A stretch of DNA of 64,000 nt from Tunturiibacter gelidiferens (GTDB lineage Bacteria > Acidobacteriota > Terriglobia > Terriglobales > Acidobacteriaceae). The stretch is taken from NCBI RefSeq assembly GCF_014201335.1, contig NZ_JACHEB010000004.1, positions 62,001 through 126,000 of the forward strand. Reading direction: 5' to 3'. Both the position numbers and the translations under genes were made by a program. Position 1 is the stretch's first letter, and each line of letters opens with the position of its first letter. The notes under the pieces were generated by a model. The model was not told where the DNA came from. It saw only the letters and a list, made by a program, of their open reading frames with translations, and searched no databases. This document shows, one piece after another, positions 8,102 to 25,152 of the stretch.

Positions 8102-8220
8102 GTCCTGCCGACAGGCCTCCTATGGATCGGCGCGGAAAATATCTGATCGCGACCAACGGGAGCGCTAACCGAAGGGGTATACAAGTCACGAAGTGATCGC
8201 TGCCCGCGCAGGGCGAACCC
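8102..8220 (+). repeat. dispersed structured repeat, copy R1
   Basis: Intergenic element. Hairpin I is TCAC-gaa-GTGA (8186-8196) and hairpin II is GCCC-gcgca-GGGC (8202-8214). Upstream lie the shared block GACCAACGGGAGCGC and, at 8102-8116, an inverted version of the family's third hairpin (GTCCTGCCGAC). Related copies lie at about 9.7, 18.6, 21.5 and 25.1 kb. Confidence 0.75.
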
Positions 8221-8256
8221 GAAGCAACACACAATCCTCAAAAGCACGGAGACACA

Positions 8257-9642
8257 ATGTCCACACCAGAACAGTACGACGCACTCATCATAGGCAGCGG
8301 AGAAGCCGGAAAATATCTCTCCTGGCATCTCGGCTCTCAGGGCAAAAAGGTCGCCAACATCGAAGACAAGCGTCTCGGCGGAGCCTGCCCGAACGTAGCC
8401 TGCCTACCCAGCAAAAACGTCATCCACTCCGCCAAGGTCGCCTCCTTCTTCCAACGCGGCTCCGAGTTCGGCATCGTCCACGGCGACTGGCACGTCGACA
8501 TGGAGGCTGTCAGTGCACGCCGCCAACGCATGATCGACGGCCTCCGAGACATGCACCTCGCGAACTACACAAAAAGCAAAGCCGAGATCGTCATGGGCTT
8601 CGGCCGCTTCATCGCCGACAAGACCATCGAAGTCGCCCTCAACGCCGGTGGCACCCGCACCCTCCGCTCCGACTACATCTTCCTCGACACCGGCTCCCGC
8701 GCCACCATCGACCCCATCCCTGGCCTCGTCGAATCCGCGCCCCTCACCCACATCGAACTCCTCGAGCTCACCGTACTCCCCGAGCATCTCCTCGTCCTCG
8801 GCGGCGGCTTCATCGGTCTCGAACTTGCCCAGGCCATGCGCCGCTTCGGAGCCAACGTCACCATCATTGAGCGCAATCCCACCCTCGTCCACCGCGAAGA
8901 TCCCGACGTCACCGAAGGCCTCCACCAACTCTTCGAAGACGAAGGCATCGACATCGTCACCAGCGCCAACATCACCAGCGTCGAAGGCACCTCCGGCAAA
9001 TCCGTTACCGTCTACCTCAGCGACGGCGCAAAGCTCCAGGGCTCGCACATCCTCGTCGCCACTGGCCGCACACCTAACACGCAAAACATGGGCATCGACG
9101 TCGTAGGCATCAAAACCACCCCCACTGGCCACTTTCAGGTCAACGACCGCCTCGAAACCACCGCCGCCGGTGTCTGGGCCATGGGCGACTGCGCTGGCTC
9201 ACCCCACTTCACCCACATCTCCTACGACGACTTCCGCATCGTCCGCGATAACCTCGCCGGAGCCAACCGCACAACAAAGAACCGCCAGGTCCCCTCCGTC
9301 ACCTTCACCGACCCCGAACTGGCCCATGTAGGCCTCAGCGAGAACGAGGCAAAGAAGCAGGGAACAGCCTACCGCCTCGGCAAGATCCCAATGGCCGCCG
9401 CCCTCCGCACTCGCACCCTCGACGAGACCCGCGGCTTCATGAAGATCCTCATCGGCTCCGACGACCGTATCCTCGGCTTCACCGCCTTCGGATCCGGTAC
9501 CGGCGAACTCCTCCCCGTCATCCAGCTAGCAATGTCCGCCAACCTGCCCTACTCGGCGGTCCATAACATCATCCTCACTCATCCGAGCCTGTCAGAAGGC
9601 TTCATCAATCTCTTCAACACCGTCCCCAAGAAACCCGCATAG
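8257..9642 (+). CDS. pyridine nucleotide-disulfide oxidoreductase (dihydrolipoamide dehydrogenase/mercuric reductase-like)
   Basis: FAD- and NAD(P)H-binding class I disulfide oxidoreductase, 461 residues. It has the FAD motif IIGSGEAGKY (about 11), redox pair GGACPNVACLPSK (Cys44, Cys49), NAD(P) motif VLGGGFIGLELAQ (about 185), second FAD motif VWAMGDCAG (about 307) and a C-terminal ILTHPSLSEGF carrying the expected active-site His and Glu. The second cysteine is preceded by Ala, where lipoamide dehydrogenases normally have Gly. No extra C-terminal cysteine pair or N-terminal HMA domain is present, so true mercuric reductase is unlikely. No 2-oxoacid dehydrogenase genes are adjacent; substrate unknown. 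Repeats flank it on both sides. Confidence 0.88.
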   Translation: MSTPEQYDALIIGSGEAGKYLSWHLGSQGKKVANIEDKRLGGACPNVACLPSKNVIHSAKVASFFQRGSEFGIVHGDWHVDMEAVSARRQRMIDGLRDMHLANYTKSKAEIVMGFGRFIADKTIEVALNAGGTRTLRSDYIFLDTGSRATIDPIPGLVESAPLTHIELLELTVLPEHLLVLGGGFIGLELAQAMRRFGANVTIIERNPTLVHREDPDVTEGLHQLFEDEGIDIVTSANITSVEGTSGKSVTVYLSDGAKLQGSHILVATGRTPNTQNMGIDVVGIKTTPTGHFQVNDRLETTAAGVWAMGDCAGSPHFTHISYDDFRIVRDNLAGANRTTKNRQVPSVTFTDPELAHVGLSENEAKKQGTAYRLGKIPMAAALRTRTLDETRGFMKILIGSDDRILGFTAFGSGTGELLPVIQLAMSANLPYSAVHNIILTHPSLSEGFINLFNTVPKKPA

Positions 9643-9664
9643 ACAGGGTCGCAGCGGTAGCCCG

Positions 9665-9771
9665 TCCCGACCAGCGGGAGAGGCCACCGCAGAACGTTGC
9701 CACACAAAAAGGTATACACGCCACGAAGTGGCCGCCCCACGCGCAGTGGGCTCGTCCGGCAGGACAGGATC
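9665..9771 (+). repeat. dispersed structured repeat, copy R2
   Basis: Most complete copy, with three hairpins in series: GCCAC-gaa-GTGGC (9720-9732), CCCAC-gcgca-GTGGG (9736-9750) and GTCC-ggca-GGAC (9754-9765). The upstream block CCGACCAGCGGGAG (from 9667) corresponds to GACCAACGGGAG in R1 and R5. In hairpin I a C-G pair replaces the T-A pair of other copies. Confidence 0.8.
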
Positions 9772-9796
9772 AAAAAATAAACTTCAAAACCATGGC

Positions 9797-9820
9797 GTAT
9801 TTTTAGGCGCTTAAAAATAC
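9797..9820. terminator. bidirectional terminator between convergent genes
   Basis: GTATTTTTA / TAAAAATAC around a 6-nt loop, 9 bp stem with A/T tracts on both arms, placed between the plus-strand oxidoreductase and minus-strand dapD. Confidence 0.65.
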
Positions 9821-9884
9821 GTCGCTAAACCACCACCTCAGCCACACAAACCGCCACAAACTCACCACGCTTTACCACCACAAA

Positions 9885-10727
9885 CTAGCGCAAAATCTCC
9901 TCTAACACCAAAGAAAGCTCAGTTTTCTCGTCCCGATATTTAACAATCACCGGAGCCGCCAAACTCAACCCCCACTCCGCGCCCTTCCCCTTAGAAACCG
10001 CCCTCGACCCCGGCACCACCACCGCCCCCTCCGGAATCACGAGCGGTTTCTCCGCCGTAGCTTTATAAATCTCGCCTTTCACCAGGTCATACACAGGCGT
10101 CCCTCGCGTCAACACAGTCCCAGCCGCCAGAACCGCACGCTTCCGCACGACGGTCCCCTCATAGACACCAGTATTCCCACCAATCAAACAATCGTCCTCG
10201 ATAATCACGGGCGAAGCATTCACTGGCTCCAGCACTCCACCAATCTGTGCCGCTGCACTCAAATGCACGCGTCGACCAACCTGCGCACAACTCCCCACCA
10301 GCGCATGCGAATCCACCATCGTCCCCTCATCCACATACGCCCCAACATTGATGTACGCGGGCGGAATCACCGCAACCCCCTTAGCCACATAAGCACCAGT
10401 CCGCACACTCACGCCACCCGGCACCACCCGCACGCCGTCCGCTACCGAAAACCGCCGCACCGGATACGTGTGCCGATCAATAAACTGCAGCGTCTCTCCG
10501 CCCATCTCCACCATCGTGCCAATACGAAACCCCAGCAGAATCCCCCGCTTTACCCACCCATTCACGCGCCATCCCAGCGGCACGGAAGCATCCGGCTCCG
10601 CAGCCCTCAACTCTCCCGCTTCCAACTTCCCACGCAGCTCAAGAAAGGCTTGCTCCGCCTCGCCACTTCCCACTGCTTCCGCACCCTGCGCAAACCAATA
10701 CTCAATCGCCGTTTCTAGCGTCTTCAA
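9885..10727 (-). CDS. dapD: 2,3,4,5-tetrahydropyridine-2,6-dicarboxylate N-succinyltransferase
   Basis: Succinylates tetrahydrodipicolinate in the succinylase branch of lysine/diaminopimelate synthesis. The 280-residue protein has the N-terminal domain with [15 protein letters not shown] and a left-handed beta-helix of hexapeptide repeats, including the characteristic [15 protein letters not shown] and [12 protein letters not shown]. The start codon is TTG (10725-10727), with GGAGAG about 6 nt upstream on the minus strand. The first 26 nt overlap the end of the preceding unknown gene, which suggests translational coupling. It is the last gene of dapA-unknown-dapD. No dapE, dapF or dedicated dapC is in the window. 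Confidence 0.95.
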
Positions 10728-11355
10728 TCTTCTCTCCGATTGTTTTGTAGTTACTGATTCGGGGCACTTTTCTCATGCGTATCCAAACGCCACACGCCAT
10801 TATCTTCCCCGAAGGCGGATGTTCCACTATTCGGCTTGTAGATTTGCCATCAAAGCGATAGTAGCTAAGACCAGTCTCCCGCCCTGAGACATGCCATCCC
10901 GTCACAAAGTCATGAAATCCATTTATTTCCGCAGGTTGAACGGCCATCCCCCACTCGCTCAGTGCACCGAGGAATTGAACTTTCTTCCCTTCAACTTGAA
11001 AGAGCCACATTCCACCGTTCGCACCTTGCCCCCCGCGCTCGCATCCGACCCCGGCAGTTGCTCTCACTACACGCAGGTTCTCCTTCAGAGGAACTTCATC
11101 AAATGTCAATCCTTGGAATAAGGCATGGATAACCTCGGGACCGCACGAGTTGTCTACTTTGACTTGCGTTAACAACAGCCTTCGTATTGCAGTAATCTGA
11201 CCGTTTTCCAGCCGCGCGGTTCTCGTTTTGGTCTGAAGGTCATCGAAACGGAAATCCTGCCATAGCCCTTTATCTTGGGCACGCAGTGCTGTCACACAGC
11301 AAATTACCAGTACAAACAACAAACATCTTCCCTGGTATGGAATCTCTCGCCTCAA
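10702..11355 (-). CDS. unknown exported protein between dapA and dapD
   Basis: 217 residues, not recognised. A signal peptide is visible ([17 protein letters not shown], cleavage after LRAQ), so the product should leave the cytoplasm although it is wedged between two cytoplasmic lysine enzymes. The mature part contains [30 protein letters not shown] and a Trp/Gly-rich central section, without a catalytic motif I can name. The start is TTG (11353-11355), sharing bases with the dapA stop (TTGA), with TGAGG just upstream. The 3' end overlaps dapD by 26 nt. The overlaps imply co-translation with both neighbours. Function unknown. Confidence 0.7.
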
Positions 11356-12272
11356 AACATCCTCAAATCTTCGCCCGTCGCAGGAACCCCAACCAACATT
11401 CCCAACTCGCCCACCATCCGCTCCAGCCGCCTTCGAGTCGCATCGGACACCGGCACCATCGGCAGCCGCAGCACATTCTCCCCCCGCCCCAGCATGTGGA
11501 GCACAGCCTTCACCGGGGCAGGGCTAGCCTCCCAAAAATGCGCCTGCATCAACCGGAAAAATTGGCGGTTGATCCGCCGCGCGTCCACCCAATCGTTCTC
11601 CAGCGCCGCCCGTACCATACGCGCCATCTGCCCCGGAATCACGTTCGAAGCCACCGACACCAGCCCCGCCCCACCCAACGCCAGCACCGGCAGGGTCAGC
11701 CCATCATCTCCCACAAACACCTTGAAGTTTCGCGGCGCGGTCGTCAGCAGCTCGGTAATCTGCGCAATATTCCCGCTCGACTCTTTCACTCCAATGACGT
11801 TCTTCAACTCCGCCAGCCGAAGCACCGTCGCCGGTTCCAAATTCGCACCTGTCCGCGAAGGAATGTTGTACAACAGCACCGGAAGAGCCGTCGCTTCCGC
11901 GATCGCCTTGAAGTGCTGATACTGCCCCTCCTGCCCCGGCCGGTTGTAGTAAGGATTGGCACTCAATACGCCCGTCAACCCATGCACCTGTGACACCTTC
12001 CGCACCCGCGCCACTACCTCATGGGTCGAGTTGTGCGTGCAGCCCGCGAACACCGGAACCCGCCCCGCCGCAGCAGCAACCACGACCTCAATCGCCCGCA
12101 ACCACTCTACCTCGGTCAGTGTCGAAGCTTCCCCCGTCGTCCCGCACGGAACAAGAAAGTCGATCCCACTCTCGATCTGCCACGTGACCAGCGCATGCAG
12201 CGCAGGCTCATCCACACTGCCGTCCCTGCGAAAGGGAGTCACCAGCGCCGTTCCACAACCCATCAATTCCAT
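11352..12272 (-). CDS. dapA: 4-hydroxy-tetrahydrodipicolinate synthase
   Basis: Condenses pyruvate with aspartate semialdehyde, the first committed step to diaminopimelate and lysine. Class I aldolase fold, 306 residues: PCGTTGEASTLT (about 40), NPYYNRPGQEG with the catalytic Tyr (about 106), YNIPSRTG (about 134) and the Schiff-base lysine in GVKESSGN (about 161). It heads the block dapA-unknown-dapD and is separated from the aminotransferase upstream by about 120 bp containing a terminator. The downstream gene begins within its stop codon. No strong ribosome site is visible before the ATG. Confidence 0.96.
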   Translation of the reverse strand: MELMGCGTALVTPFRRDGSVDEPALHALVTWQIESGIDFLVPCGTTGEASTLTEVEWLRAIEVVVAAAAGRVPVFAGCTHNSTHEVVARVRKVSQVHGLTGVLSANPYYNRPGQEGQYQHFKAIAEATALPVLLYNIPSRTGANLEPATVLRLAELKNVIGVKESSGNIAQITELLTTAPRNFKVFVGDDGLTLPVLALGGAGLVSVASNVIPGQMARMVRAALENDWVDARRINRQFFRLMQAHFWEASPAPVKAVLHMLGRGENVLRLPMVPVSDATRRRLERMVGELGMLVGVPATGEDLRMF

Positions 12273-12342
12273 AGTGACTGCAAGTTTACCCCGTCAGCGA
12301 TGTTGATTTCAGCGCACCCAGTCCTCACGTCAAAATCAAAGC

Positions 12343-12376
12343 AAAAAAATAGCCCCGACGATCTCTCGCCGAGGCC
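12343..12376 (-). terminator. terminator after the exported aminotransferase gene
   Basis: On the minus strand GCCTCGGC pairs with GTCGGGGC (wobbles allowed), followed by TATTTTTTT. It separates the aminotransferase gene from dapA, making dapA the head of its own unit. Confidence 0.65.
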
Positions 12377-12394
12377 GAGCGCTTTTTACAACAA

Positions 12395-13642
12395 CTAGCC
12401 GCGATAGAGCTCCGACGGCACATGGAACTCAGGCGCATGCAACTCCGCCGCTCCATTCGCCGCTCCCGCGGGCATGTCCATGCATTTCACAAAAGCCGTC
12501 TGGAACTTCGCCATCTCCGACTTCGTCCCCACCGTCACCCGCACATAGTTCGGCATCGCCGACCACGTCCTGCCGACCGCAACATTCTCCTTCAACATAG
12601 CCGACTGGAACTGTTTCCCCGGACGCTTCACATCCACCATGAACATATTGCCCTGCGATCCCGGAATCACCTTATAGCCATGCTTCGTCAAAAACTCCAC
12701 CGATTCCGTCCGAATATCCGCGTTGATCTTCTTGCGCAGCGGAACCAGATCCTTATCCAGCAAACTTGCGCGGGCAGCCGCAGCGCTCGAAATCGAGACG
12801 CTCGCCAGGCTCTGGCTGGGCCCACCGACATTGTTGAACCGGTCAATCAAATCCGGCCGTGCCACAACGAACCCGGCCCGCAACCCAGCCATGCCGTAGA
12901 TCTTCGAGAACGTCCGCATCACAATCACATCTTTATCCTGCGGCACAAGATCGATGCACGACTCGTTATCGGAAAAGTGGGTATAGGCCTCGTCGATAAT
13001 CACAACCGAACCCGCCGGCTTATTGTTCACCAACCAAACGATGTCTTCCTTGGGAGTAATCGTCCCCGTCGGATTATTCGGATTCACAATGTAGTACGCA
13101 CCCGGCGAAGGATGCGCCTTCAACATTGCCTTCACATCATGCGCATACGTGGCAGTCAAAGGCACCGGATACTTCGGCGCTTTCATCGTCTCAGCCGCTC
13201 GCGGCCCCTGCTCGTAGCTCGGGTCTCCATAAACCAGCGGCTTGTCCGGTCCAATATTCGACATCAGCGCGAGATCCAACGGTCCGCTCGACCCGGGAAA
13301 CAGCGCCGAATAGTCTTTTTTCAAGCCAAACTGCCCATTGAAGACATCAATCGTCTTCATGTACTCATCCCAGTGGTAACGGCCTCCCTGCGCGCCCATG
13401 CTACATATCGCCGTCAGTGCGGACTGCGCCGGTCCCAAAGGATTTTCATTCGAGCTGATCACAACCGTGTCGGCCGAAAGCGGCTGCATCCCACGCGTTC
13501 CGCTTCGTCGCGCCGTCTGCCCTGCCGCCGCAGGCGGTGTCATCGAGGCAAACGCCGGAAACGTAGTCGCCGCCGCCGAAGCAGCACCAACGATGCGCAG
13601 AAACGATCTGCGGGAAACACCTTGCGTCATATCGGAATTCAT
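12395..13642 (-). CDS. Tat-exported class I/II (HisC-like) aminotransferase
   Basis: PLP aminotransferase resembling histidinol-phosphate aminotransferase, about 415 residues. The start at 13640-13642 is supported by AAGGAGAA 7-8 nt upstream. It begins with a twin-arginine signal, SRRSFLRIVGAASAAA (Arg11-Arg12), so the protein is probably exported folded with PLP bound. Motifs are NPNNPTGT (about 188), IIDEAYTHF (Asp217, Tyr220) and TFSKIYGMAGLRAGF with PLP Lys247, plus a C-terminal NYVRVTVGT segment. All catalytic residues are present. It lies between asd-lysC-dapB and dapA-dapD, where DapC would be expected, but has its own promoter-sized spacer and terminator. Substrate unknown. Confidence 0.9.
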   Translation of the reverse strand: MNSDMTQGVSRRSFLRIVGAASAAATTFPAFASMTPPAAAGQTARRSGTRGMQPLSADTVVISSNENPLGPAQSALTAICSMGAQGGRYHWDEYMKTIDVFNGQFGLKKDYSALFPGSSGPLDLALMSNIGPDKPLVYGDPSYEQGPRAAETMKAPKYPVPLTATYAHDVKAMLKAHPSPGAYYIVNPNNPTGTITPKEDIVWLVNNKPAGSVVIIDEAYTHFSDNESCIDLVPQDKDVIVMRTFSKIYGMAGLRAGFVVARPDLIDRFNNVGGPSQSLASVSISSAAAARASLLDKDLVPLRKKINADIRTESVEFLTKHGYKVIPGSQGNMFMVDVKRPGKQFQSAMLKENVAVGRTWSAMPNYVRVTVGTKSEMAKFQTAFVKCMDMPAGAANGAAELHAPEFHVPSELYRG

Positions 13643-13970
13643 AGAAAGTTCTCCTTGAAAAGTTTCGACTAGTAGAGATGCGACACCACGGCGACAGAAG
13701 GAAGAACCAACTGAGGATCCTGAGGATCTGCTACATATTTCCTGCAAAAGCGAATCGCCTTGCAGCAACTATTCTTTGGGAACTTTGGGGTGTAGACGAC
13801 CGTCGTCCGATTGAGTTTCAATTTACCGCGAATTTCCCGCAAATACTAGAAAAATTCTTCCGTTCGCAGTGGAAAAGCCAGTAACCACGCCGCTTTCCTC
13901 AACCCATTGAGAACGTTACGCGGGCGGCCTATTCGAATCAACGCCGGCCGCGTAACGCTCTCTTCGCGAA
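13643..13970. other. 328-bp spacer between M29 peptidase and aminotransferase genes
   Basis: No convincing gene. It holds the hairpin at 13914-13957 and an AT-richer stretch (about 13740-13870) that could contain the aminotransferase promoter; no clear -35/-10 pair was identified. Confidence 0.5.
13914..13957 (-). terminator. strong hairpin after asd-lysC-dapB-M29 block
   Basis: CGTTACGCGG near 13914 pairs with CCGCGTAACG ending at 13957, with a GC-rich inner part containing a small bulge. No T tract follows on the minus strand. It may be a terminator or a 3'-protective stem. Confidence 0.5.
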
Positions 13971-15239
13971 CTAAACCCACTCTCCCCTGCGCATCAGTGG
14001 CTCAGCCGTTCCATCCGCGGCAACCCCATCCACGTCCATCTCGCCCGATCCGATCATCCAGTCCACATGAATCAGGCTCGCATTCGCACCCAGCGCCGCC
14101 AACTGCGCCGCATCCATCTTCTCGCCGCCGATCAAACAGGTCGAATACGCCTGCCCCAGCGCAATATGACTCGCTGCATTCTCATCGAACAGCGTATTCC
14201 AGAACAGCACACCACTCTGCGCAATCGGCGAAGAGTGCGGCACCAGCGCCACCTCGCCCAATCGGCGCGCCCCATCATCGGTGCTGATCAACCGGTTCAA
14301 CACATCCTCACCAGCCGTCGCCGTAGCCTCAACGATCTTGCCGCCTTCAAACCGCACCGCAATATTTTCAATCAACGTCCCTTGGTGCGACAGCGGCTTT
14401 GACGCCTTCACAGTCCCATCCACACGATCCTTATGCGGAGTCGTAAAGCACTCCTCGGTCGGAATATTCGGCTGGCAATAAACCCCATTCCCCGCAGTCG
14501 TCCCACCACCCGCCCACAGATGGTCATCCGCCAAACCGACCTTCAGATCTGTGCCGGGACCCTTGAAGTGGAGCGCAGAAAACCTCTTCGCGTTCAGCAT
14601 ATCCATGCGCTTCTTCAGGCGCGCTCCATGCTCCTTCCACTCAGCCACCGGGTCGTCCACCGCAACCCGCGAGGAGACGAAGATCGCCTCCCACAACTTC
14701 GCGACAGCAATATGCTCAGGCTCCCCCGGAAACACCAGCTTCGCCCACTCCGGCGTCGCACACGCAACGATCGTCCAGTTGATCTCATGCCGCGTAATCA
14801 ACTCCATCGCCGGTTTACCCGCCTTCGACGCTGCAACATTGGCCCGCGCCACCTTCGCAGGATCCTGCTTCGCCAACAGCGCCGGATTCGCCCCCGCAAT
14901 CGCCAGCCGAGCCGCACCACTCCGGAAGCCCTCTGCAATCCCGTCATGCAGCCACTTCGGCGCGTAGTCGAAGCTCGCATCCGCACCGTATTCATACCGC
15001 GCCAGCACACTCGGATCATCCGAATAAAACGTAGTCACCAGCAGAGCCCCCGCCTTATACGCGTGCTCCGTAATCCGCCGCACCAAAGGAAGAGCCTCAA
15101 TAGGAGCGGACATAATCAACTCCTGCCCGGCCCTCAGCCCCAGCCCAACCTTCACCGCAACCTCTGCCAGCCGGTCGAGCTTCTCGTCAAACGTCAGTTC
15201 CGCAAACTTCGTCTTCGCAACCGCTTCCATCACGCTCAT
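13971..15239 (-). CDS. M29-family aminopeptidase
   Basis: Cobalt/zinc-type aminopeptidase of the M29 (AmpS/aminopeptidase T) family, cytoplasmic, 422 residues. The start at 15237-15239 is chosen because GAGGAG lies 6 nt upstream; five extra codons exist from 15254. Family features are the Gly/Ala-rich N-terminal half with FYSDDPSVLARYEYG, the FKGPGTDLKVGLADDHLW segment, NIPTEECFTTPHKDRVDG (likely metal ligands), and the C-terminal IHVDWMIGSGEMDVDG. It follows dapB by 18 bp and reads in the same direction, so it is probably expressed with asd-lysC-dapB. A role in feeding amino acids back from peptides is only inferred. Confidence 0.88.
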   Translation of the reverse strand: MSVMEAVAKTKFAELTFDEKLDRLAEVAVKVGLGLRAGQELIMSAPIEALPLVRRITEHAYKAGALLVTTFYSDDPSVLARYEYGADASFDYAPKWLHDGIAEGFRSGAARLAIAGANPALLAKQDPAKVARANVAASKAGKPAMELITRHEINWTIVACATPEWAKLVFPGEPEHIAVAKLWEAIFVSSRVAVDDPVAEWKEHGARLKKRMDMLNAKRFSALHFKGPGTDLKVGLADDHLWAGGGTTAGNGVYCQPNIPTEECFTTPHKDRVDGTVKASKPLSHQGTLIENIAVRFEGGKIVEATATAGEDVLNRLISTDDGARRLGEVALVPHSSPIAQSGVLFWNTLFDENAASHIALGQAYSTCLIGGEKMDAAQLAALGANASLIHVDWMIGSGEMDVDGVAADGTAEPLMRRGEWV

Positions 15240-15257
15240 AACATCTCCTCGCAACTA

Positions 15258-15944: not shown

Positions 15945-15954
15945 TGATTCCTTC

Positions 15955-17388: not shown

Positions 17389-18506
17389 GCCGTCACCGCC
17401 ACGGCCTTAGCCGAAACCGTCTGCAATGGAACTCCCAACTTATCCAACTTGCCCAGCAACGCCAGCACCTCCGCGTTCAACACCGCTGCTCCCGCCGCAC
17501 CGCGAATCGTATTGTGCGACAGCACCACAAACTTCCAATCCAGGAGCGTGCACTCACGCAAACGCCCCACCGTCGCCGTCATTCCATGTCCTCGCATCCT
17601 GTCCAGACGAGGCTGCGGCCGATCCACTCCTTCGTCATACTCCACAGGCTGCTCGGGAGCCGTAGGCAGATGCTGCCCCTCCAGCGGCAGAAACTCACTC
17701 CACGCCGCCAGAATCTCCTCTCGCGTAGCCTTCTTCTTCAGCTTAATACTCACGCACTCCGTATGCCCATCCTCCACCGCCACCCGGTTGCAATGCGCGC
17801 TCACCTTCGCGTCCAGCAACTCAATCTTCGCGCCCTTCCGCTCACCCAGCAGCTTGCCGACCTCCTCCTGCAGCTTCTCCTCTTCATTCTTGATAAACGG
17901 AACCACGTTCCCCAGAATGTCGAGCGATGCCACCCCTGGGTATCCCGCGCCGCTCACCGCCTGCATCGTCGACACAAACAAACTCTCGATCCCGAACTTT
18001 TCCTCAAGAGGCTTCAATGCAAGCACCAGCCCAATTGCGCTGCAGTTCGGATTCGTGACGATATACCCACCACGCCCACCGTGGTCCTTCCGCCAGCTCT
18101 GCGTCTCCAGCAGCGCAAGATGATCCGAATTCACCTCCGGGACTACCAGCGGCACGTCCGCCGTCATCCGGAACGCGCTCGAGTTCGAAATCACCGCGCA
18201 ACCTGCCGCTGCAAACTTCGGCTCAAGCTCTCGCGCAACATCAGCATCGAGCGCCGCAAAGATAATCTTCGGCAACTCAATCGCCGATCCCTCAGGAACA
18301 TTCGGTTGCAACGTCATCGCCGCAATTCGCTTCGGCAGCGGAGTCTCGAGCTTCCACTTGCAAGCGTCGGCGTACGTCTTCCCAGCGCTGCGATCGCTCG
18401 CCGCCAGCCACGCAATCTCGAACCACGGATGATTGCTCAAAAGTTGAATGAATCGCTGCCCGACCATGCCGGTCGCGCCAAGAATGCCAACCCTGCGTCG
18501 TTCCAT
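17385..18506 (-). CDS. asd: aspartate-semialdehyde dehydrogenase
   Basis: Reduces aspartyl phosphate to aspartate semialdehyde, the branch point to lysine and threonine. 373 residues: nucleotide motif GILGATGMVGQRFIQLL, AASDRSAGKTY, catalytic cysteine in TNPNCSAIG (Cys155) and STMQAVSGAGYPG. The MVGQRFIQLL and RSAGK signatures and the length point to the archaeal/fungal-like subclass rather than the E. coli type (established subclass features, assignment by eye). First gene of asd-lysC-dapB-M29; its stop overlaps the lysC start. Confidence 0.94.
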   Translation of the reverse strand: MERRRVGILGATGMVGQRFIQLLSNHPWFEIAWLAASDRSAGKTYADACKWKLETPLPKRIAAMTLQPNVPEGSAIELPKIIFAALDADVARELEPKFAAAGCAVISNSSAFRMTADVPLVVPEVNSDHLALLETQSWRKDHGGRGGYIVTNPNCSAIGLVLALKPLEEKFGIESLFVSTMQAVSGAGYPGVASLDILGNVVPFIKNEEEKLQEEVGKLLGERKGAKIELLDAKVSAHCNRVAVEDGHTECVSIKLKKKATREEILAAWSEFLPLEGQHLPTAPEQPVEYDEGVDRPQPRLDRMRGHGMTATVGRLRECTLLDWKFVVLSHNTIRGAAGAAVLNAEVLALLGKLDKLGVPLQTVSAKAVAVTA

Positions 18507-18589
18507 CCACTAAGAATAACTCGCGGACCGAACACCGTCACTCACCCAAAAGCCGACCAAGGAAGGCTGAGCAACTAACCCAACCAAAA

Positions 18590-18650
18590 CAAGGTATAAA
18601 AGTCACGAAGTGACCGCGCTCCGCGCAGGAGGCCCGTCCGGCAGGACAAG
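18590..18650 (+). repeat. dispersed structured repeat, copy R3
   Basis: Three hairpins: GTCAC-gaa-GTGAC (18602-18614), CTCC-gcgca-GGAG (18619-18631) and GTCC-ggca-GGAC (18636-18647). It ends 3 bp from the stop codon of the small membrane-protein gene, so it lies in that gene's 3' untranslated region on the minus strand. Confidence 0.8.
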
Positions 18651-18653
18651 GAT

Positions 18654-19019
18654 CTAGTCGACCCGCCGCCGCGACCGCGTCATCCGATGCCCACCGCCCG
18701 CCCACACCAGCAAGGCCACCAGCAGATGCAACAGAAACCAGAAGTGGATCCCCTGATCCTGATAAATCAGATACAGCACCAGCGCCCGCGGCAGCAGCAA
18801 CCAGAACAGAAGCGGAACCAAGCCCTGGAAATGAGGTGGTGTCAGATCGAAGTGAAACGGTCCCAGCAAACCCTGAAACCACGCCACGACCATCGCGAGC
18901 CGAGGCAAAAACAGAGCAAACACCAGAAACCAAAGCGGCAACGCATGAACCACGAACGCCAGATCAACCGTAAACTGCGCCGAATGCTGTGCTGCCAACA
19001 CCGCCAATTCTGCAATCAT
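18654..19019 (-). CDS. small multi-pass membrane protein, unknown
   Basis: 121 residues with three strongly hydrophobic segments (about 20-45, 62-82, 90-110) and a basic C-terminal tail (HRMTRSRRRVD), suggesting the tail faces the cytoplasm. GGAGG lies 4 nt before the ATG at 19017-19019, which supports a real gene. It starts 45 bp after the cupredoxin-like lipoprotein gene and reads in the same direction, so it may be the last gene of nrdR-icd-lipoprotein. No family recognised. Confidence 0.7.
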   Translation of the reverse strand: MIAELAVLAAQHSAQFTVDLAFVVHALPLWFLVFALFLPRLAMVVAWFQGLLGPFHFDLTPPHFQGLVPLLFWLLLPRALVLYLIYQDQGIHFWFLLHLLVALLVWAGGGHRMTRSRRRVD

Positions 19020-19064
19020 CCTGCCTCCGTAGCTGTCCTTTGATCTTTGTTACGCGATCAACTT

Positions 19065-19871
19065 CTACTTCGCACCGAAACTGAAATCGGCCTTCGTCGT
19101 CCCCTTCGGTTCGACCGTCACCGTCATCGTCTGCTCGCCCAGCTTCTCGTGCACCGCCGCCAAAGTATACGTCCCCGCAGGCAATCCGCTAATCCCAAAA
19201 TGCCCATCCGCGTCTGTGACCGCAAAAAACGGCGTAGCCGAAACATTGATAAAGGCATTCATCCAGGGATGGTTATTGCACCTCACCGGAATCATCACCT
19301 CTGGCTGGTTGAACTGCTTCACCTGCGGCGAACCCTTTGGCCCCTGCGAAATATCAATCGGCTGACTCCCAGCCACCGTCGGCATCGTGTGAATGTTATG
19401 CATCGTCGAGTCAGAGTTTCTAAACTCCACCGACCCGCCGCGTACCACCGCAATCACATGCGGCACATACTTGCATCCCACCTGGTCGAGCACCACCGGC
19501 ATAGGCGTCGGGCCGCCCAACAACATCGCAGCTGGAGGCCCGTTCTTGATATACACATAAACATTCCCCAGCTTGCCGTCCTTCACCGCATACTGCTCAG
19601 CAAAGTTATCCGCAGCCGTCATCGAGCACACTGGATCCATCGACATATCGATCTTCACAGGCTCCGGAGCCTTCCCGGCAAAACGGATCGTGCCCGTCAC
19701 CATCCCCAGCGCCGCCTTATCGAGTTGCACCGTCGGTGTCGGCGGCGTTATCTTCGACGTCTCTGGCACAATGTTATCGCCGCTATGCTTCACCGCGTCA
19801 CTGGGCTTGCATCCACTCATCGCACCACATGCAACCGCACCAGCCACCAACCAACCGCAAATCCGCCTCAT
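19065..19871 (-). CDS. lipoprotein with cupredoxin-like and carboxypeptidase-regulatory-like parts
   Basis: About 268 residues. The start at 19869-19871 has GAGGTGGT directly upstream and yields a lipoprotein signal ending in AMSGC (lipid Cys21). The middle contains FRNSDSTMHNIHTM and, further on, VRCNNHPWM, spaced like the His...Cys-x2-His...Met copper ligands of plastocyanin/azurin-type proteins. It ends with a beta-rich domain FAVTDADGHFGISGLPAG, typical of carboxypeptidase-regulatory-like folds. Copper binding is inferred from these residues; electron transfer or metal handling at the membrane is possible. It lies 55 bp downstream of the isocitrate dehydrogenase gene. Confidence 0.8.
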   Translation of the reverse strand: MRRICGWLVAGAVACGAMSGCKPSDAVKHSGDNIVPETSKITPPTPTVQLDKAALGMVTGTIRFAGKAPEPVKIDMSMDPVCSMTAADNFAEQYAVKDGKLGNVYVYIKNGPPAAMLLGGPTPMPVVLDQVGCKYVPHVIAVVRGGSVEFRNSDSTMHNIHTMPTVAGSQPIDISQGPKGSPQVKQFNQPEVMIPVRCNNHPWMNAFINVSATPFFAVTDADGHFGISGLPAGTYTLAAVHEKLGEQTMTVTVEPKGTTKADFSFGAK

Positions 19872-19926
19872 ACCACCTCGCTCAAATCTCTTCCTTGAAA
19901 CTGCAGCAATCGCACCACACAAAGGC

Positions 19927-20973
19927 CTAAGCCGCAGCCACCGGAGCTTCCATCGCAGCCATCACCGCATCGGCAAACGCCTTGGTACCGCTCGTGCCTC
20001 CAACATCCTTCGTCAGAGTCTTCCCCTCGCGATACACCTGCTCCAGCGCAGCCTGCACCCGCTCCGCCGTCGCCGGCTCATCAATGTGATGCAGCATTAG
20101 CACAGCGCTCTGCAGCAGGGCAGTCGGATTCGCCATATCCTTCCCTGCAATATCCGGAGCCGATCCATGCACTGCCTCAAAGATCGCGCATTCAGTCCCA
20201 AGATTTGCCCCCGGAACCAACCCAAGCCCACCCACAAACGCGCTGCAAAGGTCGCTCAGAATATCCCCATACAAATTCTCAGTCAGCAAGATATCGTATT
20301 GATAGGGATTCATCACCAGCTGCATGCAGGTGTTATCGACGATGTGCTCGTGATAAGCGACCTCGGGAAAACCCTCCGATACCGTCCTGCAGCACCGCAG
20401 AAACAGGCCATCCGACAGCTTCATGATGTTTGCTTTGTGAATCGCATGGATCTTTTTGCGCCCATGCTTGCGCGCATAATCAAACGCAAACTTAGCAATC
20501 CGCGTCGAACCCTTCTCGGTAATAATCTTCAACGCCTGCACCACTCCGGGCACCACCTCATGCTCGAGCCCAGCGTACAAGTCCTCCATGTTCTCGCGCA
20601 CAATCACCAGATCGATATTCGGATAGTTCGTCTTCAACCCGGGCAGACTCTTCACAGGCCGAAAGTTGGCAAACAGTTCAAACTTCTGCCGCAGCGTTAC
20701 GTTGATCGAAGCAAATCCACCACCAATCGGCGTTGTCACCGGCCCCTTCAGCGCAACACGATTCTTCTCGATCGAGTCATACAGCACCTTCGGAATGTAC
20801 TCACCCGTCTTCTCGAACGCATTTGCTCCCGCATCGTAGGGATGCCAGTCAAACGCCACGCCCGTCGCTGCACCCGCAGCCTCAAGAATCTTCACTACCG
20901 CGCCAGAGACCTCCGGGCCAATTCCATCGCCCGGAATCAAAGTAATCCTGTGCGTCTTCTTCGCTGCCGTCAT
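19927..20973 (-). CDS. icd: isocitrate dehydrogenase, NAD-type (beta-decarboxylating dehydrogenase family)
   Basis: Oxidative decarboxylation of isocitrate to 2-oxoglutarate in the TCA cycle. 348 residues: ITLIPGDGIGPEV, substrate motif SINVTLRQKFELFANFRP, VIVRENMEDLYAGLEH, catalytic Lys in HKANIMKLSDG, and YGDILSDLCSAFVGG with the metal-binding Asp residues. The SxN and ENMEDLYAG motifs are those of isocitrate rather than isopropylmalate dehydrogenases, and the length matches the short NAD/IDH3-like class. It starts 3 bp after nrdR, implying one transcript. A homoisocitrate-type substrate is less likely but not excluded. Confidence 0.88.
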   Translation of the reverse strand: MTAAKKTHRITLIPGDGIGPEVSGAVVKILEAAGAATGVAFDWHPYDAGANAFEKTGEYIPKVLYDSIEKNRVALKGPVTTPIGGGFASINVTLRQKFELFANFRPVKSLPGLKTNYPNIDLVIVRENMEDLYAGLEHEVVPGVVQALKIITEKGSTRIAKFAFDYARKHGRKKIHAIHKANIMKLSDGLFLRCCRTVSEGFPEVAYHEHIVDNTCMQLVMNPYQYDILLTENLYGDILSDLCSAFVGGLGLVPGANLGTECAIFEAVHGSAPDIAGKDMANPTALLQSAVLMLHHIDEPATAERVQAALEQVYREGKTLTKDVGGTSGTKAFADAVMAAMEAPVAAA

Positions 20974-20976
20974 CCA

Positions 20977-21450
20977 CTACCGCCTTTTCTTTGGGTCTTT
21001 CCCGTTCAACAACTCTTCCAGTTCTTCCTTGAACTCGCGAACATCCTTGAAGTCCCGATACACGCTCGCGAACCGGATATACGCAACCGTATCGATCTCC
21101 TTTAGACGCGTCATAATCAACTCGCCGACCTCGTTCGTCGTCCGCTCACGCTCCGGTGAATCCACCACATAGGCCTCAGTTTCATCCACAATCCGTTCCA
21201 GATTCACAGCGGCGACAGGCCTCTTCTCGCAGGCATGCAGCAGCCCACTCAGCACCTTCTGCCGGTCGAACTTCTCTCGCCGTCCATCTTTTTTCACCAC
21301 CATGTAGGGGATCTCGTCGATCCGCTCATACGTCGTAAATCGCTTGTTACAGCCTTCGCACTCTCGTCGTCGGCGTATCGAATCCGCATCTTTGCTCTCG
21401 CGTGAATCGACAACTCGGTCCTGGGCAAAACCACAGTAGGGGCACTTCAT
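20977..21450 (-). CDS. nrdR: transcriptional repressor NrdR
   Basis: Zinc-ribbon/ATP-cone regulator that represses ribonucleotide reductase genes according to ATP/dATP level. 157 residues: CPYCG near residue 3 and CEGCNKRFTTYE near residue 33 form the four-cysteine zinc site; the ATP-cone spans about 49-139 (VVKKDGRREKFDRQK onward). Length and order are canonical. No NrdR box or ribonucleotide reductase gene is adjacent. It heads the nrdR-icd unit. Confidence 0.96.
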   Translation of the reverse strand: MKCPYCGFAQDRVVDSRESKDADSIRRRRECEGCNKRFTTYERIDEIPYMVVKKDGRREKFDRQKVLSGLLHACEKRPVAAVNLERIVDETEAYVVDSPERERTTNEVGELIMTRLKEIDTVAYIRFASVYRDFKDVREFKEELEELLNGKDPKKRR

Positions 21451-21533
21451 CGGAATAAGTCGATTCTATCAGCGCACAACCAAGCTCTTCCCACCGACCA
21501 AAGGGAGGTCCGTGAGTCGTTCACTCGTCAAGA

Positions 21534-21635
21534 AAGGTACACAAGTCACGAAGTGACCGCGCGAACCGGGGTCCCCACGAACAGGTCTTGGTTCGTGGGG
21601 TGACAAGCGCAGTGGGCCCGTCCGGCAGGACAAGA
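21534..21635 (+). repeat. dispersed structured repeat, copy R4 with inserted hairpin
   Basis: Hairpin I GTCAC-gaa-GTGAC (21545-21557) and hairpin III GTCC-ggca-GGAC (21620-21631). Between them is a perfect 10-bp hairpin CCCCACGAAC / GTTCGTGGGG (21573-21600) not seen in other copies, placed where hairpin II normally sits; the right arm GCGCAGTGGG of hairpin II remains at 21607-21616. Confidence 0.75.
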
Positions 21636-21646
21636 CTCAAGAGAAA

Positions 21647-22699
21647 CTACCCCAAATCCCCTTCAACCACCGCAACCCCAGCCGCCTCGCTCTCCTGCGC
21701 AACCTTCTTCAAACTCACATGCTCCACCCGCGAATAGATCAACCCAGTAGGAATAATGCAAAGAAAAGTAACCATCAGCAACAAAGCACCACAAGCAGTA
21801 GCAGCCTCAAGCGGCGCACCAAAAAACGTATGCATCGCCGCAGCAGTAATCGCAATCTGAGTAAACCACCCAATAATCGGAAGCTGCAGAAGCGATCCGC
21901 CAATGCTCGCCGCCATCAAAAGCATCGTCCGCGAAAACGTAACTCCGGCCAACTCCGGCGTATTCACAAACGCGTGCAGCGTCTCCATATAGCCAAACCC
22001 GATCATCATCCACATCGTCAGCGACAGCAGTGTCACCACACCAAAGTCCCGTGCCGAAGACAAAGCATTCAGCCCATCGCGAAACCCGATGATCTTCGTA
22101 GCGATGCTCTCACCAGCCGCCTTCGAAACCAACCCAACCGTCCCCCGCGCAAACGAAGCAACGGTCCCACCCGCAACCCTCACCACACCCGCAAAGATCG
22201 CAATCGCCAGAGTAAGTCCCATGCTCAACGCGCCAGCCTTCACAAATACCTCATGATGAGGAAGGCCCTTCGGAGTGAAAGCCAGCGCCCCCGAAAAGAT
22301 CAACGCCGCCGCTCCCAGATCGAACATGCGCTCAATCGTCCAGACCGCTATCTGGGAGCTCAACGGCAGATTCACTCGTCGCGCCACCAGGTAAGGCCGA
22401 GTGAAATCCGCCAGCCGTCCAAACAACGCCACCGCAGTGAATCCAATAAACTGCGAACCCAGCAGGGAAGCAGGCGAGACCTTCTTCGTCGGCGACAGAA
22501 AAACCGACCACCGCACCGCCCGCAGAAAAAATGTAACGTAAATCAGCACAATTCCAGCGACGAGGTGCCCAACGCTCACATACCGAAGCTGCCGCCAGAA
22601 GTTGGCCCAATCAAACTGCACCCTGGTCCGAAACAGCCACACCAGCACCGCCAGCGCAACCGCGCCGACTCCCCACACCACTGCGTTACGCTTGGTCAT
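21647..22699 (-). CDS. lysylphosphatidylglycerol synthase TM-region (flippase-like) membrane protein
   Basis: 350-residue integral membrane protein with about eight hydrophobic helices, of the family that contains the MprF flippase region and YbhN-like proteins (PF03706 type). Indicative segments are RWSVFLSPTKKVS after the second helix, FTAVALFGRLADFTRPYL with conserved Gly/Arg, and LGAAALIFSGALAF. There is no C-terminal aminoacyl-transferase domain, so it is not a complete MprF. Transport of a lipid-linked molecule is a family-level guess. It sits close to a lytic transglycosylase gene on the same strand. Confidence 0.78.
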   Translation of the reverse strand: MTKRNAVVWGVGAVALAVLVWLFRTRVQFDWANFWRQLRYVSVGHLVAGIVLIYVTFFLRAVRWSVFLSPTKKVSPASLLGSQFIGFTAVALFGRLADFTRPYLVARRVNLPLSSQIAVWTIERMFDLGAAALIFSGALAFTPKGLPHHEVFVKAGALSMGLTLAIAIFAGVVRVAGGTVASFARGTVGLVSKAAGESIATKIIGFRDGLNALSSARDFGVVTLLSLTMWMMIGFGYMETLHAFVNTPELAGVTFSRTMLLMAASIGGSLLQLPIIGWFTQIAITAAAMHTFFGAPLEAATACGALLLMVTFLCIIPTGLIYSRVEHVSLKKVAQESEAAGVAVVEGDLG

Positions 22700-22732
22700 C
22701 CATCTCTCTCTTGATCCGTAGCTGGTGCTGTC

Positions 22733-23437
22733 TTATCGTGCCTGAGCAACCATCGCCATCTGCTTCCGGCGATTAAACTCGCGAATCACCCGCGCCACAT
22801 ATGCCCGTGTCTCGCGATACGGAGGCATCCCGTGATACTTATCCACCGCGCCCGGCCCGGCGTTATAGGCCGCCAGCGCCAGCGCCACATTGTCGTGATA
22901 GCGCGTCAGCATTAAATCCAAATATGCCGTCCCGCCCGAGATATTCTGCTCCGGCCGAAACGCATCTTCCACACCCATCGCACTCGCCGTGCCAGGCATC
23001 AGTTGCATCAGCCCCTGCGCGCCTGTCCGCGAAACCGCTCTTACCTGCCCGCCACTCTCAGCCCTCACCACACTCGCCAGCAGATCCTCATCAATGTTGT
23101 GCGCCGCACCCGCATGCGCCAACATCTCATGCATCTCTTCTTTCGTAGGCACTGTCATTAGCGTCACCGCAGAAGGCGCCTTCACGTCGTTCACCGGCTC
23201 CGGCAGATCCGCAACTGTCTCCACCCGAACCACCGAATCCGCCGCAACGTCCATGTAGTTCGAACTCGCGGCAGCCCCAGGTTTTTCCGCAAAATAGAGA
23301 CGAACCTTATCCCCAACCGCCTCTCGCCGAACGCAATCCAGTTCAAATCCATTCTTAAGCGTCACGTGCTCTGCCGCACGCGCCAACGGGCACGCCGCAG
23401 CGATCACCGTGCTCAACACAAACGCTTTAATCCACAT
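22733..23437 (-). CDS. lytic transglycosylase (SLT family)
   Basis: Periplasmic murein hydrolase cleaving MurNAc-GlcNAc bonds with anhydro ends. The ATG at 23435-23437 opens a signal peptide (WIKAFVLSTVIAAACPLARA, cut near RAAEH); a TTG four codons earlier is possible. The catalytic domain covers about residues 110-225: SVVRAESGGQVRAVS with the catalytic Glu, GAQGLMQLMPGTA, and ALAAYNAGPGAVDKY. It matches the SLT/MltE-type domain without a LysM repeat. It is 33 bp from the flippase-like gene downstream, possibly an operon linked to cell-wall metabolism. Confidence 0.93.
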   Translation of the reverse strand: MWIKAFVLSTVIAAACPLARAAEHVTLKNGFELDCVRREAVGDKVRLYFAEKPGAAASSNYMDVAADSVVRVETVADLPEPVNDVKAPSAVTLMTVPTKEEMHEMLAHAGAAHNIDEDLLASVVRAESGGQVRAVSRTGAQGLMQLMPGTASAMGVEDAFRPEQNISGGTAYLDLMLTRYHDNVALALAAYNAGPGAVDKYHGMPPYRETRAYVARVIREFNRRKQMAMVAQAR

Positions 23438-23501
23438 TGCCACCTTCAAAGCCTACCACCCCAACCCGCCATCGACCCAACTTTGAACTCCCACGATAGG
23501 G

Positions 23502-24479
23502 TCATCCAAGACCACCCGCCAACATCCTCTCAATCACCTCCGCCACCCCATCCTCATCATGCCGCCGCCCCATCCTCCACCCTCTGTCCCCAGCCAACGC
23601 CTTCAGATCCTCCGGAGCGTTCCCCATCAGCACCGCTCGCCCCGCAACCTCCAGCATCGAAACATCATTCCAGTTATCCCCAATCGCCAGAATCTCTTCT
23701 GCCTTCACCCCTCGCGTCTCCGCGAGCCGCAGCAGTGCCGACCCCTTGCTGCACCCCGCCGGCAAAATATCCACCATGCTCAAATCCCGCTCCGGATACT
23801 CCGTCCGATGCAACGCCGCCTCTGCCACCGAAGCCCGCTCCTGCGGTGTTATCCCGCCTCGGGCCAGGCCAATATTCTCCAGCCGCCGCACCTCGTCCTT
23901 CCGCAGCGGCGACACTCCCACAGCCGACACCCCCGGATGCTCCAAAAGCTTCGCTTCCGCCCTCCGCATCCGCTCTATCGTTCCACACAACAACATCGAG
24001 ATCGGCGCCTCCCCCTCCAGCGCATCTTCAATCGGCACCACACATTCGATATAGGGCTTATTCGCCGCCACCCATTTGCTAATGCTGGCGTTCAGCTCCG
24101 CCAAGTGCTCCACCACCAGCGCCCCGCGCACATCCTCCCCATCCTCCGTCACCTTATCGAAGGTCACCACCAGCGCATTGCGAAACTCCTCCACATGCCC
24201 ACACAGCCACCGCGCCGTCTCCAGCGGCAGTAACGTCCTGTCCAGCAGCTTCGCCCCGACGGTCCGCGTCACCGCTCCGTTCGAGCTGATCAGCGCGTCC
24301 TCCTCCCGCAAACCCAGCCCCCTCAGCACCCTCATCGCATACGGGTGCCGCCGACCAGTAGCCACCACCACCGTCATCCCCGCCTGCTCTGCCGCCTTCA
24401 TCGCGGCCAGATTTCTTTCGCTCACCAACCCATTCGGTCCAACGAGCGTTCCGTCCATATCTACTGCGATTAAACGCAT
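23502..24479 (-). CDS. Cof-type HAD-family hydrolase
   Basis: Haloacid-dehalogenase-like phosphatase of the Cof/YidA subfamily (HAD IIB). Motif I is AVDMDGTLVG with the nucleophilic Asp at the N-terminus, motif II VVVATGRRHPYAM, and motifs III/IV KGSALLRLAE and AIGDNWNDVSML at the C-terminus. ATG at 24477-24479 is preferred because GAGG lies 5 nt upstream. Length about 325, slightly longer than the usual 270-290. Substrate (sugar phosphate, FMN/PLP or other) unknown. Confidence 0.9.
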   Translation of the reverse strand: MRLIAVDMDGTLVGPNGLVSERNLAAMKAAEQAGMTVVVATGRRHPYAMRVLRGLGLREEDALISSNGAVTRTVGAKLLDRTLLPLETARWLCGHVEEFRNALVVTFDKVTEDGEDVRGALVVEHLAELNASISKWVAANKPYIECVVPIEDALEGEAPISMLLCGTIERMRRAEAKLLEHPGVSAVGVSPLRKDEVRRLENIGLARGGITPQERASVAEAALHRTEYPERDLSMVDILPAGCSKGSALLRLAETRGVKAEEILAIGDNWNDVSMLEVAGRAVLMGNAPEDLKALAGDRGWRMGRRHDEDGVAEVIERMLAGGLG

Positions 24480-24624
24480 GCCCACCTCAATTTCCCTGCA
24501 TATTCTCTCATCTTCGCTGTATAAGTATCCATAACCTATTCAATATCTATAATTTACGAGAAATTCACGTGACATTCATGGCCCCCTGAGCCACACTGGT
24601 AACAGACACCACAAAGGCTTGTTT

Positions 24625-24990
24625 ATGTTTCACAAAAATGTACTAACCTCCCTTGGGAGCGTCTCACCGCAGCAAATTCCAGATTCTTCTCCCCAAACCT
24701 CCAACCAGCCTTTCAACCGAATTGCGCTGGTTCCTCCTGGCAGCGGAGCTCCGCCCCAAGCAAAACCTTCTCCGCTCTTGGATTTCATCGCCATCGCAGC
24801 TCCGCGCTGTTCTTCCTTCTTTGCCGAAGCGGCGGTTCTGGTCCTCGTCCTGGCCTTGCTCGACAGGTTCATGCTCAAGGGCCGCATGGAGCTCAACTGG
24901 GTCATCAGCGCCTTCGCCATCAGCGTCGCGCTCCTCGCGGCAAGCATCTTGACGGACTTTTCGTCCCGCCGCTGGCTCAAACGACACTGA
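24625..24990 (+). CDS. small membrane protein, unknown
   Basis: 121 residues. ATG at 24625 with AAAGG 7 nt upstream. The first 60 residues are Pro/Ser-rich without recognisable domain; two hydrophobic helices follow (about 63-83, SSFFAEAAVLVLVLALLD, and 92-110, VISAFAISVALLAASIL), then a basic C-terminus SSRRWLKRH. No family recognised. It stands alone between a divergent HAD gene and repeat R5. Confidence 0.6.
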   Translation: MFHKNVLTSLGSVSPQQIPDSSPQTSNQPFNRIALVPPGSGAPPQAKPSPLLDFIAIAAPRCSSFFAEAAVLVLVLALLDRFMLKGRMELNWVISAFAISVALLAASILTDFSSRRWLKRH

Positions 24991-24993
24991 CGA

Positions 24994-25152
24994 GTCACTT
25001 CGTGACATCTATACTGGCTGGCCTATACCGGCTGGCCTCCCGCTGGTCGGCGGAATATCTTTTGCTCGCGACCAACGGGAGCGCCAACCGAAGGGGTATA
25101 CCCGTCACGAAGTGACCGCGTCGCGCGTAGCGGTCCCGGCCGGAAGGTCACC
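24994..25152. repeat. dispersed structured repeat, head-to-head pair (copy R5)
   Basis: An inverted hairpin I (GTCAC-ttc-GTGAC, 24994-25006) faces a direct one (GTCAC-gaa-GTGAC, 25104-25116) about 100 bp away. The direct half carries the shared GACCAACGGGAGCGC block, a diverged hairpin II (CGC-gcgta-GCG, 25122-25132) and a degraded hairpin III. Lies between the small membrane protein and thrC. Confidence 0.75.

Follow-up and report, generated by a model that had tools for sequence, protein, structure and literature searches.

What kind of element recurs in the intergenic spacers of a 64,000-nucleotide stretch of Tunturiibacter gelidiferens DNA (contig NZ_JACHEB010000004.1, positions 62,001 to 126,000; hereafter, the window), and how has it spread? 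An earlier reading of the letters alone (hereafter, the sequence-only reading) had reported five copies, R1 to R5, of a repeat with three hairpins (I, II and III), and had suggested selection on structure or spread as a repetitive extragenic palindrome (REP)-like element. We found that R1 to R5 are members of a large, real, structured repeat family. On balance, and without great confidence, we favour the reading that the family consists of non-coding composite DNA palindromes resembling REPINs (inverted REP doublets), which work at the DNA level and strand-specifically, and whose spread is not explained by a Y1 enzyme (REP-associated tyrosine transposase, RAYT).

A large repeat family nearly confined to one genus

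A 25-mer of the core (≤3 mismatches) gave five matches in the window, covering all of R1 to R5, and none in 100 shuffles; CACGAAGTG matched six times against 0.43 expected. The sequence-only reading had staked itself on further copies in the genome, and these were plentiful, both there and in relatives. The core pattern GGTATANNNGNCACGAAGTGNNCG (≤2 mismatches) had 109 matches (63 + 46) in the own genome (6.18 Mb in 23 contigs, the window being part of one, C4), and its reversed control had none. Across 14 genomes picked for having copies, the own genome and 13 relatives, matches to the pattern at ≤2 mismatches ranged from 16 (G082) to 348 (G027).

A covariance model matched in 38 of 62 genomes of the genus and, at class level, in 23 of 299 genomes and 2 of 106 genera, of which the second gave a single match; these taxon counts rest on stricter filters than the pattern and on at most 90 (genus) or 18 (class) matches listed per genome. 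Among the matches listed from a pattern scan of public genomes were Edaphobacter lichenicola, Granulicella sp. S190, G. aggregans, Acidobacteriaceae TAA 166 and metagenome-assembled genomes, and viral contigs gave no pattern match. Records of the same genus carry the titles Edaphobacter and Granulicella (Acidobacteriota), and within the genomes searched here the family is nearly confined to this one genus, whose members live in soil. No account of it in Edaphobacter or Granulicella was found in the titles and abstract openings listed from the open-licence PubMed Central (PMC) literature.

All of R1 to R5 lie in spacers, as had been claimed. By a home-made gene caller, the cores of 356 fetched copies fell in called spacers in 306 cases, overlapped a called open reading frame (ORF) in 37 and lay inside one in 13. 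Short, high-copy and mostly intergenic palindromes of this kind are also typical of REPs and REPINs of the GTAG class.

Stem pairing is kept while sequence varies

The anatomy of the element was drawn from 99 own-genome copies readable with their flanks. An arm runs in the order hairpin A, hairpin B or a variable spacer, GGTATAC, hairpin I, hairpin II and often hairpin III; the three-hairpin description was incomplete, the upstream hairpins A and B having gone unreported. Hairpin A reads xxC-GACCAACGGGA-Gxx and may contain flanking G-A pairs along with an inner CC/GG stem; hairpin B is C-GAA-G, hairpin I GTCAC-GAA-GTGAC and hairpin III GTCC-GGCA-GGAC, and hairpin II joins a variable stem to a GCGNA loop. 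Of the 341 copies taken from all the loci fetched, 313 had an A box, at a bimodal distance from the core (13-17 nt in 172 of the 313; 26-31 nt, with variable sequence, in 128), and 104 of these 313 had a B hairpin recognisable by motif (79 of right-arm and 25 of left-arm type). Forty of the 99 own-genome copies had an inverted partner within 150 bp upstream, an inverted-dimer layout like that of REPs and REPINs, and 59 had none. In full, the unit spans about 200 bp and pairs two inverted arms (III' II' I' B' A' - centre - A B I II III); numerous copies are half units (A, spacer, I, II, III).

Covariation was evaluated in 341 copies (core ≤3 substitutions, orthologues included), and for hairpin II in the 307 with at least three of the four fixed loop bases. 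The hairpin II pairs (26,38), (27,37) and (28,36) were Watson-Crick in 294, 295 and 295 copies, against 153, 198 and 119 expected from column composition, which pools to 884 of 921 cells against about 470. Only 6 of the 921 cells were G-T and 12 were A-C; in a small control, 19 acceptor stems of tRNAs at these loci, G-T made up 9 of 133 cells. Flank pairs 2 and 3 of hairpin A were Watson-Crick in 292 and 216 of 313 copies (159 and 95 expected). Across 49 own-genome copies, cells changed on both sides numbered 62 against 13.7 in shuffles, and none of 500 shuffles was as high. Both hairpin II and hairpin A have covarying stems, and in II the pairing stays strictly Watson-Crick. The earlier claim that stems vary while pairing is kept was therefore borne out, and the covariation on which it hung was strong by composition and by shuffle counts alike.

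The loops were near-constant (GAA 335/341, GCGNA 288/307, GGCA 211/237), but the GCGNA and GGCA counts follow a loop filter, and GAA and the inner stem of hairpin I belong to the search pattern, so that their constancy is partly selected and the covariation rests mainly on II and A. GNA and GNNA loops closed by G-C pairs are described as extraordinarily stable DNA mini-hairpins in the excerpted text of PMC4686876, and GAA and GGCA are loops of these kinds.

Unpaired copies lie mostly on one DNA strand

The strand of the element was compared with local GC skew for the 203 unpaired copies whose flanks reached 1.2 kb or more, 177 of them with |skew| ≥0.1. The plus strand of the element lay on the C-rich strand in 156 of these 177 and in 167 of the 203 overall; counted once per orthology group, the figures were 111/130 and 121/152, and among the singles of the own genome 25/28. 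The bias was present in each of the four gene arrangements (27/31, 34/38, 54/58 and 17/19). Right arms of paired copies followed the orientation of the singles (28/38) and left arms opposed it (4/17). Along the chromosome, successive copies kept to one strand in longer runs than by chance, with 30 runs against 50.8 expected in G065 (first 100 of 112 exact places) and 21 against 32.5 in G071 (64 places judged unpaired), and strand correlated with skew interpolated from 20 kb samples at -0.39 and -0.24, respectively. Most unpaired copies are turned the same way with respect to the local strand asymmetry, regardless of how the genes run, an ordering by DNA strand that goes beyond the sequence-only reading.

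Unusual GC skew in some genomes that carry the repeats

In the part of the window from 1 to 44 kb, where genes lie on both strands, the skew per kilobase ranged from -0.11 to -0.41; beyond it the skew was mostly weaker, at +0.03 to -0.28; the five repeats all lie in the skewed 1-44 kb part and its last 18 kb have none. Over the whole window, codon-position-3 skew read in the same frame was -0.50 for plus and -0.44 for minus genes. In the region of R1 to R5, the nine genomes sharing the R4 copy (window included) had a skew of -0.24 to -0.29 and twelve others -0.07 to -0.21; the nine are related, and their skew level may be one event.

The repeat carriers G065, G071 and G078 showed huge, patchy skew, with codon-3 values up to about 0.6-0.7, and in 20 samples of G083, which has no covariance-model match, the skew was about 0.1 and split into two halves in the ordinary way. 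A two-replichore explanation fits G083, not G065, G071 or G078. The repeats as the cause of the skew were rejected as well, |skew| having no relation to local copy number in G065 and G071 and a weak one in G078 (rho 0.51); these counts have a chance background, since the same script gave 10 core matches in 400 kb of G083 at ≤4 substitutions. The G-rich strand is usually the leading strand. Gene-strand bias failed as a pointer to it: the share of codons on the G-rich strand was 0.45, 0.47 and 0.51 in G065, G071 and G078 (0.60 in G083), and the equation of G-rich with leading gets no support from gene-strand bias in the skewed genomes.

Across the single rRNA operon, taken in the operon's own direction, negative skew gave way to positive in 9/9 genomes with both flanks read (L401-L420), though these are relatives with similar flanks and not independent. 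The switch is origin-like. Ten own-genome proteins beside the operon were scanned and none was recognised as a replication protein, which is not decisive.

Copies are gained or lost at orthologous sites and may exchange sequence

At the site of R4, the nrdR spacer, 30 loci gave 29 readable spacers, and 9 of them, the own genome included, carried the element, as half units in four and inverted pairs in five. Copies were also present in 7 of 18 other genomes with both flanks at the R3 site, in 5 of 9 at R2 and in 2 of 9 at R5 (G071 and G065; G078, G028, G031, G024, G013, G076 and G032 had none there). The left flank gene of R1 was found in one of 20 genomes, G071, which has the R1 copy. At R3, G082 had a divergent relative with A and III boxes and a different hairpin I. 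Presence or absence at orthologous spacers indicates that some copies are old and others were gained or lost; together with the inverted pairs and the mostly intergenic sites it fits the earlier proposal of REP-like spread.

Hairpin II stems of the CCAC/GTGG, CTCC/GGAG and GCCC/GGGC types alternated at the same site, and a form with a nested hairpin occurred, among the genomes read, only in G024 at R2, only in G078 at R3 and only in G000 at R4. With different species carrying different hairpin II modules at one and the same site, copies seem to swap sequence with one another, and the differences look like en-bloc exchange. Such a second hairpin inside hairpin II (CCCCAC...GTGGGG type) was seen in scattered copies (window 21560-21616, R2 of G024, R3 of G078, L044, L025, L050 and L202) and looks like a nested mobile piece or a swapped module; DNA like the whole nested unit of R4 recurs elsewhere in many genomes. 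In genomes that lack the element at the nrdR spacer (L238, L247, L249, L232 and L233), that spacer holds a different dispersed repeat (GGGTGCCCCATC...AAGGTGGG or ATGGGTGGG, with variants).

Folded DNA, transcripts and the search for a mover

A structured RNA, its hairpins serving in the transcript to terminate it, to stabilise its 3' end or as small RNAs, would also have covarying stems, and the strong conservation of pairing, several copies lying directly after stop codons by sequence, and the enrichment of singles between convergent genes (69 of the 165, compared with 134 of 618 spacers) all suit it. Yet the singles in same-direction spacers showed no preference by gene direction (++36, --41 of 165), G-U pairs were not favoured, no Rfam family matched the window at gathering score, and orientation tracked DNA strand asymmetry in all four gene arrangements. 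The rarity of G-T, comparable to that of A-C, and the lack of a gene-direction preference argue for DNA rather than RNA, and the placement of singles mostly on one DNA strand suggests function as folded DNA. We therefore regard the element as probably DNA-level and strand-specific and a structured RNA as improbable; the small-RNA or 3'-end role raised by the sequence-only reading is weakened by gene orientation and pairing and keeps the convergent-gene enrichment in its favour.

A classical REP or REPIN moved by a host TnpA-REP (RAYT, Y1 HUH) that is now lost in some genomes would account for palindromic intergenic dimers with unequal arms like those in the excerpts of PMC3733652, and 7 of the 11 genomes with at least 83 copies had one to three Y1 matches over cut-off each. 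The other four (G000, G013, G027 and G028) had none over cut-off in searches with PF01797, which covered the own genome and 60 relatives, with 11 genomes taken to E up to 1; G027, with the most copies of the genomes counted, had no Y1 match even at E 1. Conversely, G008 had 6 Y1 matches and no covariance-model match. No core lay within ≤1.5 kb on each side of 45 Y1 loci, 30 of which come from the search of relatives and cover part of its matches; one locus (L111, of another family) had a hairpin-III-like match. Nor was GT[AG]G conserved at the hairpin feet: it occurred in at most 3 of 341 copies at any one foot of hairpins I, II and III on either side, and at the foot of hairpin A in 0-1 of 313 on the 5' side and in 45-48 (~15%) on the 3' side read in reverse. 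Neither a conserved GT[AG]G foot nor a cognate RAYT flanked by copies, as in REPs and REPINs, was found in these tests. A Y1 enzyme as the present mover was rejected on these searches, the suggested TnpA-REP link found no support, and past movement by such an enzyme appears unlikely; the mover was either not of the Y1 kind or has been lost. Still harder to credit is a miniature inverted-repeat transposable element (MITE) of a DDE or other insertion sequence (IS) with hairpin III as its terminal inverted repeat (TIR). The paired units at the R4 site do have hairpin III at both ends, as terminal inverted repeats would be, but ten aligned empty sites, with their spacers replaced, showed no clean target duplication, half units survive and covary on their own, and neither the retention of many internal hairpins nor placement on one strand would be expected of a DDE MITE.

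Several results count against the DNA-level, strand-specific reading that we favour. Besides the partly selected loops, the outermost drawn pair of hairpin II (25,39) was unsupported (180 against 179 expected) and the third pair of hairpin A was A-C in 44 and G-T in 15 of 313 copies. Paired arms of the variable type had no strand preference (37/83), and the enrichment between convergent genes would match an RNA or gene-end role too. Folding models do not separate the DNA and RNA readings: minimum structures of 56 copies contained hairpins I/II/III in 39/43/41 cases as RNA and 51/38/38 as DNA, the bare GAA hairpin is not stable under the DNA parameters, and the RNA minimum structure of R2 did not show the three hairpins. 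Copies at R2 to R4 are common to several related species, so that much of the spread is old, and in ten empty-site alignments chosen from 507 copy-less pairs the spacers were replaced, with no clean insertion and target duplication. The Y1 searches found no mobilising enzyme. Skew as a marker of replication direction is an assumption, made for genomes that are patchy and whose genes are not biased to the G-rich strand.

If the favoured reading is right, the functional form would be a DNA strand folded into hairpins when exposed single-stranded, most likely during replication; an enzyme reading these hairpins would insert or template new copies, and template switching or gene conversion between copies would keep the stems perfect. 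IS608 and ISDra2 target the lagging-strand template (PMC6006769, in excerpt), which makes a single-strand mechanism a natural model for this family. If the G-rich strand is assumed to mark the leading strand, the plus strand of the element is lagging-strand sequence. A more specific version, which we think doubtful though worth stating, is that these are strand-specific single-stranded DNA elements, placed or kept only with their hairpins, under extra-stable GNA/GNNA loops, on one fork strand and moving without a Y1 transposase, so that their orientation is a fossil record of fork direction. If true, copy orientation would record fork direction in chromosomes with huge patchy skew and an origin-like switch at the rRNA operon, and these chromosomes would differ from the usual two-replichore plan.

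Likeness to known palindromic repeats

By the features tested, the layout is REPIN-like and belongs to neither the GTAG nor the CGTC class. BOX elements of Streptococcus pneumoniae are likewise built of modular boxes. They too are small interspersed repeats (PMC3049150). REPINs and bacterial interspersed mosaic elements (BIMEs; PMC3116915, PMC3733652) are also short, mostly intergenic, high-copy palindromes in inverted dimers with unequal arms, with stems that vary while pairing is kept and spacers that are variable or conserved. Here, in contrast, an arm has up to five hairpins where a REPIN has one, there is no conserved GTAG foot, no RAYT association was found, and singles are oriented by the strand of skewed DNA.

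The CGTC-REPs (Di Nocera 2013, PMC3733652) are, in the same excerpts, REP-like, form heterodimers and have no known dedicated transposase. Their CGTC is an unpaired tag, whereas here it overlaps the hairpin III stem: an unpaired CGTC occurred in 4 of 341 copies at the 5' foot of III and in 6-10 of 313 at that of A, and CGTC was common inside the III stem. Their stems are of 8-9 bp beginning with A-T pairs, unlike the 4-5 bp, G-C rich stems here, which have no A-T start, and the aligned copies lack the CCA tail of the CGTC-REP definition excerpted there. The TIR repeats associated with TIRYT enzymes share the phylum Acidobacteria and palindromic tracts but, by the description excerpted from PMC3733652, flank tyrosine transposase genes, whereas the present core was found at none of the 45 Y1 loci. 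In published REP work, spread is linked to RAYT enzymes, and the CGTC class is left with no mover assigned to it. The present family, large and spread over a genus, with good evidence for DNA-level structure and strand orientation and with no Y1 over cut-off in four copy-rich genomes, makes it possible to ask by what agent palindromic repeats are copied in bacteria. Where the skew of a genome is unusual, it may also serve as a strand marker for replication.

The copies in the window

The core is present at all five places, and the ordered layout attributed to them needed correction. Hairpin III as GTCCGGCAGGAC was present in R2, R3 and R4 only, with none in R1 and the variant GGCCGGAAGGTC in R5. 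The GCGCA loop of hairpin II was likewise not universal: in R4 the hairpin is interrupted by a second one (CCCCACGAAC...GTTCGTGGGG) and in R5 the loop is GCGTA. Hairpin I of R1 has four Watson-Crick pairs (GTCAC/GTGAT). R5, taken for a single copy, is an inverted pair with its second arm from 24994, and the whole pair (24994-25152) folded as DNA at -41.5 kcal/mol (z -3.96).

Table 1 Positions of the repeat parts in the window (coordinates of the window)
Feature	Position	Strand	Basis	Details
R1 hairpin A (CGC-GACCAACGGGA-GCG)	8148..8164	+	sequence	GACCAACGGGAG at 8151-8162; flank pairs covary family-wide
R1 hairpin B box ACCGAAGG	8168..8175	+	sequence	right-arm type
R1 core	8176..8215	+		GGTATAC, hairpin I 8185-8197, hairpin II 8201-8215, without hairpin III
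R2 hairpin A	9666..9682	+		
R2 core	9711..9765	+		hairpin I 9720-9732, II 9736-9750, III 9754-9765
R3 degenerate hairpin A (GCCGACCAAGGAAGGC)	18552..18567	+	sequence	
R3 core	18593..18647	+		hairpin I 18602-18614, II 18618-18632, III 18636-18647
R4 hairpin A (GACCAAAGGGA loop)	21493..21509	+		
R4 core	21536..21631	+		hairpin I 21545-21557, II with nested hairpin ~21560-21616, III 21620-21631
R5 left (inverted) arm	24994..25055	-		hairpin I 24994-25006, hairpin A box 25037-25048
R5 right arm	25067..25149	+		hairpin A box 25070-25081, B, core from 25095
R5 right-arm hairpins		+		I 25104-25116, II 25120-25134, III variant 25138-25149

An AT-rich inverted repeat (AAAAATAAA...GTGGCGTATTTTT) was also seen near several copies, at about 9772-9812 in the window and after the copies in L007 and L064.

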